From a virus: a stretch of 20,112 bases of DNA. The notes beneath the pieces are model-generated. The model was given only the letters and a program-made list of their open reading frames with translations. It was not told the origin of the DNA and did not search any database. How positions within the stretch are numbered: position 1 is the first letter of the stretch; each line of letters starts with the position of its first letter. Position numbers and translations under genes: made by a program. Below are positions 17,776 to 20,112 of the stretch, piece after piece. Location of the stretch: IMG/VR virus record IMGVR_UViG_3300029264_000324, positions 1-20,112 of that record; one strand, 5' to 3'.

Positions 17776-17791
17776 GAAAAGGAGACGGCCC

Positions 17792-17813
17792 CGGTTTAGC
17801 TGTAACTAAACCG
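17792..17813. promoter_or_regulatory. Perfect dyad upstream of the com operon
   Basis: CGGTTTAG and CTAAACCG form an 8-bp perfect inverted repeat separated by six bases. It is not followed by a T-run, so it is a poor terminator. The half-site-N6-half-site geometry (TTTAG-N6-CTAAA) is like the TTAT-N6-ATAA site known for the Mu C activator at Pmom, so this may be the activator site of the accessory operon. That is inference by analogy. Confidence 0.45.
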
Positions 17814-17861
17814 AAGCCACCAACCACAGTGAACCATCCACCGTGAATTAGCCAAGGTCTC

Positions 17862-17879
17862 CCGCTCGTCGACGAGCGG
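17862..17879. promoter_or_regulatory. 18-bp perfect palindrome in the com leader
   Basis: CCGCTCGTCGACGAGCGG is self-complementary and as RNA would fold into a stem of seven pairs with a TCGA loop. It lies 27 bases before the com start, within a leader with several other inverted repeats (17781-17786 with 17857-17862; 17825-17831 with 17839-17845 with one mismatch; 17886-17889 with 17895-17898). The last of these covers the TAGG that may serve as the com ribosome site. Confidence 0.5.
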
Positions 17880-17906
17880 AGTTAGCCTAACAGATAGGTT
17901 ATTCAC

Positions 17907-18131
17907 ATGCATAATGTGCGATGCAATAAATGTAACAAACTGCTGGCGCGAGTCGGCGGCGGTGATAAAGTTAACGACGTGGCGCTGGTCTTTGAGATTA
18001 AGTGCTCACGTTGCAGGTATATCAATATTCAGAAGGCCCAGAGCCTCTTAAATAGTCCGCACGTTGCGGTAAATTTGGAGAGGTCTCATGGCCAAGTCGA
18101 AAACAAAACAACTCGGAAAGAACGGCTTTAA
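17907..18131 (+). CDS. com: Com-like zinc-finger translational activator
   Basis: The 74-residue protein begins MHNVRCNKCNKLLARV and matches the Mu Com family. Four cysteines in two CxxC pairs (6/9 and 33/36) can bind zinc, and the RCxxCNKLL block is diagnostic. In Mu, Com binds the com-mom mRNA and opens the mom ribosome site. Here the downstream gene starts inside com (18088) and its ribosome site is in a predicted hairpin at 18041-18087. The ribosome site of com itself is weak (TAGG). The gene follows a structured leader of about 130 bases. The C-terminus is basic and probably disordered. Confidence 0.9.
   Translation: MHNVRCNKCNKLLARVGGGDKVNDVALVFEIKCSRCRYINIQKAQSLLNSPHVAVNLERSHGQVENKTTRKERL
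18041..18087 (+). promoter_or_regulatory. Predicted Com-controlled RNA switch hiding the next ribosome site
   Basis: GAGCCTCTT (18041-18049) pairs with GAGAGG-T-CTC (18078-18087) as nine pairs with one bulged T and one G-T pair. The 3' arm contains the ribosome site (GGAGAGG) of the gene that starts at 18088. Nested inside is a second perfect hairpin, CCGCA-CGT-TGCGG (18057-18069). This is the arrangement expected of a translation-inhibitor stem opened by Com, as known for Mu mom. Not tested experimentally. Confidence 0.65.
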
Positions 18132-18243
18132 GTACAAGCCTAAATTTGGCGTCGTTATCATCTGCGAAGACGAACGTTCACAGATTGATGCGCACCGTCG
18201 CGTTAAAGAACTGGGGCTAAAAACTAAGGTGGTGACTATATGA
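18088..18243 (+). CDS. 51-aa basic protein of the modification operon
   Basis: The product is MAKSKTKQLGKNGFKYKPKF followed by GVVIICEDERSQIDAHRRVK and a short hydrophobic end (LKTKVVTI). It starts 44 bases inside com and overlaps the next gene by ATGA (18240-18243), so it is fully embedded in the operon. A ribosome site (GGAGAGG, 18077-18083) is present but sequestered. The pattern KFGVVIxCxDExxQ reminds me of short conserved proteins or domains in phages, but I cannot name a family. It is the first target of Com-type control and may be a subunit or adaptor of the enzyme encoded next. Confidence 0.72.
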   Translation: MAKSKTKQLGKNGFKYKPKFGVVIICEDERSQIDAHRRVKELGLKTKVVTI

Positions 18244-19328
18244 AAACAGTCACTATCGAACACCGCTGCTCAGACTTCGATTCATTCCGCGCCGAATACG
18301 TTAAGAGTTTATTTAACGTCGAAAGCGGCGCTGACTTCCGCATTGATGCGCACTTGCCTGATGACTCCGAAGAATGGGGTATCGGCGTAATCGTTGGCCC
18401 CAGCGGCTCGGGTAAAACGTCACTCGGCTCCGAGTTCTGGCCGCGCACAAAACCGTGGTCGCCTCGGTGGCCGAAAGACAAACCCATTATCGATGTCATT
18501 GGTACTAACCTCGAAGTAAAGCAGGCCGCGGCGATGCTCTCGTCCGTTGGCTTAGGCTCGGTACCCAGCTGGCTACGTCCTTATAACGTTCTATCCAATG
18601 GTGAGAAGTTCCGCGCCGATCTAGCGCGTCTCTTATGCGACGCACCTGCCCACGCGGTTGTCGACGAGTTCTCAAGCGTTGTGGATCGTCAGATCGCTAA
18701 GGTTGGCGCTCTGGCGTTTGCTAAGTCGTGGCGTCGAACCAACGGGCGCGTCGTTCTGCTGAGTTGTCACTACGACATTCTGGAATGGCTACAGCCCGAC
18801 TGGTGGTTTGATACAGCCACGGGTGAGCTGAACCGGAGGGCGCTTAGGCGACCCAAGTTCGAGTTGGAAATCATCGAAACGGATTGGCGATACTGGCCCC
18901 TGTTTGAGCCGCATCATTATTTAAAACTGCCCAAGATGATCGCCGCCAAATGCTACGTGGGGTTTGTTAATGGTGAGCCTGTTGCTCACGTAGCGTTCTC
19001 TACGCGACCGGGGCTTGTCGAGGCTCGCGCTTGCCGCTTGGTCGTTATGCCGGAGTGGCAAGGCGCTGGCGTCGGTATGCGATTTCTAAATGCAATTTGT
19101 GAGCGCTGGCTTAAAGGTAAGAATAGATTTGGCCTGAATCTTCCGACGTTATTCCACACATCACACCCCGGCTTGGCCGATACTCTGCGTCGTCAATCGT
19201 GCTGGACACAGGTTAGCGGTGTGCTTCATGGAAGTTGTGCCCGTGATACCGGATTAAATAGCGCGTCATACGGGGGGCACTGGCGTGCGGTTCAAGGATT
19301 TAGATACATAGGGGCCGATTATGATTAA
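18240..19328 (+). CDS. ABC-type ATPase fused to a Mom-like GNAT domain
   Basis: The 362-residue protein has two domains. Residues 1-200 are an ABC-type ATPase: Walker A GPSGSGKT (53-60), signature-like LSNGEKFRADLAR (118-130), Walker B AVVDEF (D142, E143), D-loop SSVVD (145-149) and switch His177. There is no membrane segment, so it is not a transporter subunit. Residues about 205-362 look like a GNAT fold: HHYLKLP (225-231), YVGFVNGEPVAHVAFS and an acetyl-CoA-type loop QGAGVG (274-279). Mu Mom is also a GNAT-fold DNA-modifying enzyme, and many Mom-like proteins have an HY motif near this position. Following com, it is the best candidate for a DNA base-modifying enzyme with an ATP-driven module. 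Function is inferred. Confidence 0.8.
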   Translation: MKTVTIEHRCSDFDSFRAEYVKSLFNVESGADFRIDAHLPDDSEEWGIGVIVGPSGSGKTSLGSEFWPRTKPWSPRWPKDKPIIDVIGTNLEVKQAAAMLSSVGLGSVPSWLRPYNVLSNGEKFRADLARLLCDAPAHAVVDEFSSVVDRQIAKVGALAFAKSWRRTNGRVVLLSCHYDILEWLQPDWWFDTATGELNRRALRRPKFELEIIETDWRYWPLFEPHHYLKLPKMIAAKCYVGFVNGEPVAHVAFSTRPGLVEARACRLVVMPEWQGAGVGMRFLNAICERWLKGKNRFGLNLPTLFHTSHPGLADTLRRQSCWTQVSGVLHGSCARDTGLNSASYGGHWRAVQGFRYIGADYD

Positions 19329-19932
19329 AGCGTTTGTGGTCGGCCGCGGCTGGTTTGCTTCCGAGGTTTGCCGGTTACTTACAGCGGCGGATAACGTCGT
19401 TGTCGTTGGTGGGTACGCCCCTGACAAGTCTGACCGACTATTTACCACCGCCGTATCGTATGGACTGCCCTGCGGCACCGGCACTAGATTAACGGGTTTG
19501 GATATCCCTCGCGGCACCGACGTTATCGTCGGTGCTAACACCCACGCCTATGTTGATGCTTCGGCTCGATTGTTTACGCGGTTTGGAGCGATCGCTTATC
19601 ACCCGTCACTACTACCACGGCATCGAGGCCGCGACTCGATAGAATGGGCAGTACGAATGGGCGACAAGATCACAGGCGGCTCTGTCTACTGGATGGACGA
19701 CGGAGCCGACACGGGGCCAATCGCCGCTCAGGATTGGTGTTGGATAAGACCGGGTGATAACGCCCGCGAATTATGGAGACGTGACTTGGCACCGATGGGG
19801 CTGAAGTTGTTACTGGACGTGCTAAACGATCTGGACGACGGCAAGGTCGTATCGGTTACTCAGAGTAGTGACGTTGCGTCGTGGGAACCGGCATTAACAA
19901 AAACCCCGCTTTCAACTTTGACGCGGGGTTAG
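19321..19932 (+). CDS. Folate-type formyltransferase domain protein
   Basis: The 203-residue protein is a single formyltransferase (GART-type) domain. The fold start KAFVVGRGWFASEV resembles the nucleotide-binding-like beginning of this family. The folate loop is AYHPSLLPRHRG with His94, and the second motif is GGSVYWMDDGADTGPI with Asp130. The catalytic Asn of Fmt/PurN (NxH) is replaced by Ala92, as in the 10-formyl-THF hydrolase/dehydrogenase group, which also has a YHPSLLPRHRG motif. It overlaps the ATPase-GNAT gene by eight bases, so the two are co-translated. A role in transferring or releasing a formyl group during DNA base modification is proposed, not shown. Confidence 0.82.
   Translation: MIKAFVVGRGWFASEVCRLLTAADNVVVVGGYAPDKSDRLFTTAVSYGLPCGTGTRLTGLDIPRGTDVIVGANTHAYVDASARLFTRFGAIAYHPSLLPRHRGRDSIEWAVRMGDKITGGSVYWMDDGADTGPIAAQDWCWIRPGDNARELWRRDLAPMGLKLLLDVLNDLDDGKVVSVTQSSDVASWEPALTKTPLSTLTRG
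19902..19930 (+). terminator. Possible terminator at the end of the accessory operon
   Basis: AACCCCGC (19902-19909) and GCGGGGTT (19923-19930) form a perfect eight-pair, GC-rich stem with a 13-base loop that overlaps the stop codon at 19930-19932. Only a weak T-rich run follows. It would stop transcripts before the prophage end and the host gene. Confidence 0.55.
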
Positions 19933-20018: not shown

Positions 20019-20112
20019 CACTGGCGAGCTGAATCGCAATGCCAGAGGCTGGTTTGCCGTTATAGTAGCCAGCAACTGAATAGTTTTCAGCACCCAGTTC
20101 AATACTCGCCAC
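20019..20112 (-). pseudogene. Host RND efflux pump (AcrB/MexB family) gene, interrupted by the prophage
   Basis: The minus strand reads VASIELGAENYSVAGYYNGK then PASGIAIQLAS, which matches the porter region of AcrB-type proton-driven multidrug pumps (in E. coli AcrB, around residues 270-300: [20 protein letters not shown]). After LAS the family continues with GANAL, and the next host base is the expected G. Beyond 20019 the frame runs into phage sequence and stops at 19987. The rest of the gene should lie left of the prophage. Expression of the pump is presumably lost. Confidence 0.85.

Follow-up and report, generated by a model that had tools for sequence, protein, structure and literature searches.

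Which genes take the place of mom in a Mu-like phage that has kept com, and do they serve to modify DNA? The question is raised by the IMG/VR virus record IMGVR_UViG_3300029264_000324, analysed over its positions 1 to 20,112 (the window, i.e., the whole 20,112-base stretch). Near its right end, four open reading frames (ORFs) follow one another on the plus strand: com (17907..18131; 74 aa), a gene of 51 aa (18088..18243), a fusion of an ATP-binding cassette (ABC) ATPase with a GNAT domain (18240..19328; 362 aa), and a gene with a formyltransferase fold (19321..19932; 203 aa). Successive genes overlap by 44 bp, 4 bp (ATGA), and 8 bp, which confirms the arrangement given in a first-pass annotation made from the sequence alone, in which a Com-led set replacing mom had been regarded as a candidate new DNA hypermodification system. 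The set is very probably a DNA-modification operon under the control of Com, irrespective of the chemistry proposed below.

Probable translational control by Com

The com product exhibits the four zinc-binding Cys (CxxC...CxxC) of this zinc-ribbon translational activator in the alignment of Com proteins, as in Mu Com, and scores above the cut-off of PF10122 (27.5 bits, cut-off 22.9), with a further match to phrog_6417 (E 7e-11). In Mu, Com binds to the mom RNA and opens a hairpin situated over the start, and the Com motif selected by systematic evolution of ligands by exponential enrichment is GAG(N)2CC or CC(N)2-3GAG (PMC6483171). A predicted RNA hairpin resembling the translation-inhibition structure of Mu (18035..18093, plus strand; minimum free energy -28.8 kcal/mol) is found in the window; it pairs the Shine-Dalgarno sequence GGAGAGG (18077-18083) of the 51-aa gene and contains the start codon of this gene in a small internal loop of the stem region. 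A motif of the Com-binding type CC(N)2GAG, here CCCAGAG (18037..18043, plus strand), lies in its 5' side. None of 200 shuffled sequences was equally stable (z = -5.48).

The same features recur among the related loci. The starts of the 51-aa gene fold with a mean z of -1.69 in loci possessing com and of -0.20 in loci lacking it (p 3e-8), and the starts behind com also fold more stably than those of the ABC and formyltransferase genes. This clear comparison was based on dinucleotide shuffles and controls; an earlier test with shuffled flanks yielded a small effect only. The Com motif is present upstream in 91% of the loci with com versus 34% of those without, and is common in loci combining com with a methyltransferase gene as well. 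Since the loci are related to one another, the p-values overstate the certainty. A hairpin that would hide the ribosome site, together with a Com motif at the start of the 51-aa gene, supports a Com-regulated operon, as had been assumed in the first-pass annotation, and the view that the set works as a unit is supported likewise.

Genes following com in other loci

The strongest argument for a role of the ABC-GNAT module in DNA modification is the company kept by com, since the genes behind it are nearly always DNA modifiers. In a search with Com profiles that was blind to the cargo, and in which only loci long enough to be judged were classed, com was followed by genes for D12-type adenine, N6A/N4C, or C5 methyltransferases, for Mom, or for ABC-GNAT. 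Only three loci in this search were without an assignable modifier (L230, L315, and L273, the last with a disrupted frame); the clearest exception is L230, where a com-like ORF precedes an SGNH-hydrolase-like gene of 600 aa. All of ten com-cargo proteins checked with Pfam, three of which had been missed by motif rules, were DNA methyltransferases. The expectation that the set modifies DNA thus agrees with what is found behind com elsewhere.

Mom itself was situated behind com in 14 of 20 loci obtained with Mu Com as query. In the loci L217-L296, com occurs chiefly before D12-type adenine methyltransferase genes rather than before mom. As com is mainly found ahead of methyltransferase genes, Com appears to serve the DNA methyltransferases of phages as a general switch, and a role as translational switch for DNA modifiers beyond mom is suggested.

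The ABC-GNAT fusion

The fusion protein matches phrog_11143 (E 7e-149) and contains both of the domains after which it is named, although the ABC part falls just short of the Pfam cut-off (PF00005: 24.1 bits, cut-off 25), whereas the GNAT part exceeds it (PF00583: 25.3 bits, cut-off 20.7). The ABC motifs (18396..18770, plus strand) comprise Walker A (GPSGSGKT, aa 53-60), the signature (LSNGE, aa 118-122), Walker B with its Glu (AVVDE, aa 139-143), and the H-loop His177, and the GNAT domain (aa 204-362; 18849..19325, plus strand) exhibits the acyl-CoA (coenzyme A) loop QGAGVG (aa 274-279). Lys59, Ser119, Gly121, Asp142, Glu143, and His177 as well as Gln274, Gly275, Gly277, and Gly279 are conserved in 84/84 homologues. 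In an AlphaFold2 model of the fusion (pLDDT 87), the ABC domain adopts the standard ABC fold (Z 15 in structure comparison), with a short spacing between Walker A and signature. The GNAT domain, modelled separately (pLDDT 87.9), is similar to the CoA-binding GNATs 1y9k (Z 14.6) and RimI 5isv (Z 14.2). Fold searches with the GNAT domain alone gave general GNATs tied with each other and none indicating a substrate; no Mom structure was among these matches, which is not evidence of absence.

The term Mom-like, which the first-pass annotation had applied to this domain, has weak support only. A His-Tyr pair after the first helix is present as in Mom (HHY, aa 225-227), and it is this region alone that aligns, with KHY of Mom, when profiles are compared by hhalign, at a probability of 12%. 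The Mom family PF25680, which recognizes Mu Mom with 253 bits, gave no match to the 362-aa protein at E up to 1. Most members of the Mom family possess the motif RNSES or RNTES in place of the CoA loop, whereas the family of the window keeps QGAGVG there. Judged from these comparisons, the GNAT domain is not a member of the Mom family, with which it has only the His-Tyr motif in common.

The 51-aa gene

The existence of this gene had been noted before; its relationship to ParB-like proteins had not. The family phrog_28816, to which the 51-aa protein belongs (E 2e-17), also matches the extreme C-termini of ParB-like proteins (P0001, L066, L071; E 5e-7 to 1e-8), the genes of which lie ahead of ABC-GNAT in viral contigs as well as in a Gordonia phage. 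A custom hidden Markov model detects the same tail, with weaker scores, at the end of ParB-like proteins from phages of Arthrobacter, Streptococcus, Pasteurella, and Lactococcus. On account of this shared tail, the 51-aa protein can be identified as a free-standing C-terminal domain (CTD) of ParB-like partners. Versions with the length of a ParB-like protein were found in 1/117 loci with com, but in 17/42 loci without (p 1e-10). Within the clade of the window, the 51-aa family nearly always adjoins ABC-GNAT, with a 4-bp overlap of stop and start, and because of this constant company and overlap the CTD may dock on the ABC-GNAT protein.

A further link of ParB partners to GNAT modifiers of DNA is provided by the Microbacterium phage Appa, in which a ParB-like and a Mom-like gene overlap (L209:2469-3621). 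The Appa ParB-like protein terminates in a CxxC segment and not in the CTD.

The formyltransferase

The last gene product has the formyltransferase fold (PF00551: 66.5 bits, cut-off 26.1), in agreement with the folate-type enzyme of the first-pass annotation, which had not recognized the subtype. The best match among solved structures is the hydrolase domain of 10-formyl-tetrahydrofolate (10-formyl-THF) dehydrogenase (PDB 4qpd, E 2e-25), and profile scores rank in the same way: 152 bits for 10-formyl-THF dehydrogenase versus 103 for the best methionyl-tRNA formyltransferase and 48 for HypX. His94, Ser96, and Asp130 are invariant in 63/63 homologues. Profiles for methionyl-tRNA formyltransferase, glycinamide ribonucleotide (GAR) transformylase, and ArnA remained far below their thresholds (TIGR00460: 64 of 201.5 bits; TIGR00639: 42 of 150.1; PRK08125: 45.2 of 777). 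Fmt and GAR transformylase use a catalytic Asn within an Asn-x-His motif; the position two before His94 is occupied by Ala in the window and by Gly, Ala, or Ile in the aligned homologues inspected, such that the catalytic Asn is absent. The enzyme is assigned to the hydrolase-domain type of 10-formyl-THF dehydrogenase by these sequence features, and not to an Fmt- or PurN-like type. The protein ends at 203 aa and lacks the acyl-carrier and aldehyde-dehydrogenase domains of the whole dehydrogenase. In that enzyme, the formyl acceptor is the thiol of 4'-phosphopantetheine, and HypX has been proposed to pass a formyl group to CoA (PMC6802093).

Distribution and linkage

Relatives are widespread: 350 of ABC-GNAT and 345 of the formyltransferase were found in one viral collection, and 450 of ABC-GNAT in a collection of bacterial species. 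The hosts of the carriers range from Pseudomonadota to Planctomycetota and Acidobacteriota and include one Chloroflexi metagenome-assembled genome. Among 145 loci homologous to ABC-GNAT with adequate flanks, the 51-aa family is situated immediately upstream in 133 and the formyltransferase immediately downstream in 117, and com is present in 94; the association of the genes is not due to chance. This is the neighbourhood that had been suggested as a check in the first-pass annotation. Conversely, wherever 700 nt or more were available upstream of the formyltransferase, ABC-GNAT was found to precede it (77/77 loci); the loci considered are those with the best scores, and more distant ones may differ. 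The possibility that homologues regularly occur in unrelated contexts, named beforehand as a refutation, is thus not borne out for the formyltransferase.

In five of these 77 loci, ABC and GNAT appear as separate frames, and the assignment to ABC-GNAT is there based on the ABC part. In L358, L360, L361, L387, and L392, such seemingly separate frames lie before the formyltransferase and a CTD protein of ParB length lies upstream.

In a tree, most of the 164 rows in the clade of the window possess the formyltransferase, with absences scattered among them, and the six distant outgroup phages lack it; as the outgroup branches are long, only the main split is trustworthy. A gene of the cassette was present in only 3/294 host genomes of one order, a pattern expected of a mobile element.

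Position in the prophage

The record encodes a Mor regulator, and the window ends in host DNA, a fragment of a resistance-nodulation-division (RND) efflux-pump gene (20021..20112, minus strand; junction position approximate). Residues 2-32 of this fragment match MdtF/AcrB in the PDB (E 5e-7), and PF00873 remains under its cut-off (14.6 bits). The insertion has interrupted an AcrB/MdtF-like host gene. Because the window ends in this fragment, the element is a Mu-like prophage with the formyltransferase as its last phage gene, which is the position of mom in Mu, and the earlier statement that com is kept at the mom-equivalent place holds. The phage/host junction (TGTGAAGCG...) resembles, by eye, a right end of the Mu type. 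A palindrome, CCGCTCGTCGACGAGCGG, is situated at 17858-17880 within the 131-bp gap 5' of com and is a possible regulator site. The 51-aa protein, ABC-GNAT, and the formyltransferase all match PHROGs families at nearly full length. PADLOC reported no defence system of note.

Proposed mechanism and alternatives

How the four genes might act together can be outlined as follows. Before Com binds CC(N)2-3GAG and opens it, the hairpin would keep the ribosome site of the 51-aa gene hidden, as the tests described above support, and translation of the downstream genes would be coupled by way of the 4- and 8-bp overlaps. The ParB tail, standing in for the whole ParB-like protein of the relatives, may dock on ABC-GNAT, the ABC domains of which might spend ATP on engaging DNA or on loading the substrate. 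Since a GNAT needs an acyl-CoA, the two enzymes would be connected most simply by formyl-CoA: the formyltransferase would shift the formyl group from 10-formyl-THF to CoA, and the GNAT domain with its standard acyl-CoA site would pass it on to a DNA base at an exocyclic amine, such that the phage DNA would be protected against restriction. For the whole chain, from a late Com-controlled operon in place of mom through formyl-CoA and base formylation to restriction protection, we assume a probability of roughly 0.4. The chemical proposal as such, i.e., that a dedicated phage enzyme makes formyl-CoA and an ATP-powered GNAT formylates an exocyclic amine of DNA, which would mean a new DNA base as well as a novel role of formyl-CoA, is tentative and somewhat doubtful.

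Several points weigh against formylation of a base via formyl-CoA. A formyl amide on a base would be fairly labile and a poor protective mark unless processed further. GNATs also act on proteins, RNA, and small molecules. Furthermore, the formyltransferase is missing in 17/135 (~13%) of the CTD/ABC-GNAT loci with enough downstream sequence, and the GNAT can therefore work, or persist, without it; with regard to other acyl-supplying enzymes, only ordinary phage genes were among the neighbours listed for these loci, L016 apart. In L016 (4669-7025), where the formyltransferase is lacking, ABC-GNAT is followed by a ParB-like protein of 502 aa and by a methylase of the Dam type. Finally, the HypX precedent for formyl-CoA is without direct experimental proof (PMC6802093).

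The main rival reverses the order of the two enzymes, the GNAT adding an acyl group that bears an amine (e.g., glycyl), which is then formylated by the formyltransferase, on or off the DNA. All evidence for DNA modification applies to it equally, and many enzymes of the PF00551 fold do have amines as formyl acceptors (among the matches, Fmt, ArnA, and sugar formyltransferases); however, the catalytic Asn of such amine-formylating enzymes is absent and the closest relative has a thiol as acceptor, which renders this order rather unlikely. The absence of the formyltransferase from some ABC-GNAT loci, as well as the naming of its closest relative domain after the hydrolysis of 10-formyl-THF, would also fit a modified DNA that contains no formyl group, with the enzyme serving as 10-formyl-THF hydrolase, folate balancer, or structural subunit and the GNAT using an ordinary acyl-CoA. 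A general metabolic enzyme would hardly be so tightly coupled to, and overlapping with, ABC-GNAT, and we consider this explanation improbable.

Concerning the target, the GNAT domain comes closest, among solved folds, to protein N-acetyltransferases such as RimI and Naa50, and GNAT toxins acetylating aminoacyl-tRNA, as discussed in PMC7641849, provide a precedent for a host-takeover or toxin-like acyltransferase directed at a host protein or RNA (e.g., ribosome, aminoacyl-tRNA, or RNA polymerase). The company of com-led genes, nearly all DNA modifiers, the ParB partners, the late mom-equivalent position, and the lack of any weighty PADLOC match make such a target decidedly improbable. A transport function, in which an ABC transporter and a metabolic formyltransferase form a lysogen 'moron', has been published for the same gene pair in phage phiE255 (gp29/gp30; PMC2920897), and the ABC fold is indeed like that of transporter ATPases. 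Here, however, the ABC domain, with the short spacing mentioned above, forms one protein with a GNAT domain, neither a transmembrane partner nor a transmembrane domain was found among the operon proteins (sequences and domain hits), and expression is linked to a phage hairpin and to Com; fusion and operon contradict this function, which is hardly credible.

If the formyl-CoA proposal is correct, the long-predicted ABC-GNAT systems gain a testable donor chemistry. Viral contigs and prophages with the cassette number in the hundreds, and it may be one of the more common unrecognized means by which phages hide their DNA from restriction. As carrier phages of laboratory hosts exist, the modified base could be directly identifiable; the carriers include Pseudomonas phage Komp_PAO1_1 (host PAO1) and Gordonia phage Mariokart.

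Comparison with known systems

Despite its designation as a candidate new system in the first-pass annotation, the operon is new in part only. Acyl modification of a DNA base by a GNAT coupled to an ABC ATPase had already been predicted by Iyer et al. (2013), as far as reported in PMC7824862. No paper was found that joins Com, a ParB tail, ABC-GNAT, and a formyltransferase of the 10-formyl-THF-dehydrogenase type, most subscription papers being outside the searched literature; relative to the searchable part, Com control, ParB tail, and the thiol-type formyltransferase appear to be new. A term search of the Leptospira LE3/LE4 paper gave no base-modification data.

The genome of Tenacibaculum phage pT24, named in PMC7824862, matches the ABC-GNAT of the window (tblastn E 1e-39), and the ABC and GNAT domains of this predicted family are homologous to those of the window protein. 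Several relatives have a ParB-like gene ahead of ABC-GNAT. The relatives examined outside the clade of the window lack both formyltransferase and Com, whereas the window clade is characterized by a dedicated formyltransferase and, where com leads the locus, by the detached ParB tail. The same gene order is found in the Burkholderia Mu-like phage phiE255, where gp28-gp30 at the right end encode a hypothetical protein, an ABC protein, and a formyl transferase, the latter pair being read as possible transport and metabolism (PMC2920897); this likeness is based on the published description.

With 10-formyl-THF dehydrogenase, the formyltransferase of the window has the fold, the His, Ser, and Asp residues, and the motif YHPSLLPRHRG in common, and with HypX the fold and the catalytic His and Asp. 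In the window, the enzyme stands alone, possessing neither the acyl-carrier and dehydrogenase domains of the former nor the enoyl-CoA-hydratase-like domain of HypX.

Concerning com-mom of Mu, the similarity comprises Com itself, its overlap with the next gene, the hairpin at the ribosome site, the Com motif, the location at the right end, and a modifier with a GNAT fold. The overlap measures 80 bp in Mu (com, 35768-35956; mom, from 35877) and 44 bp between com and the 51-aa gene in the window. GATC is absent from the 131 bp upstream of the window com, and the Dam-dependent switch of Mu is therefore not evident here. A difference concerns the cargo: Mom is exchanged for a ParB tail, an ABC-GNAT, and a formyltransferase, and the GNAT domain, unlike Mu Mom, possesses an intact CoA loop and no match to PF25680.

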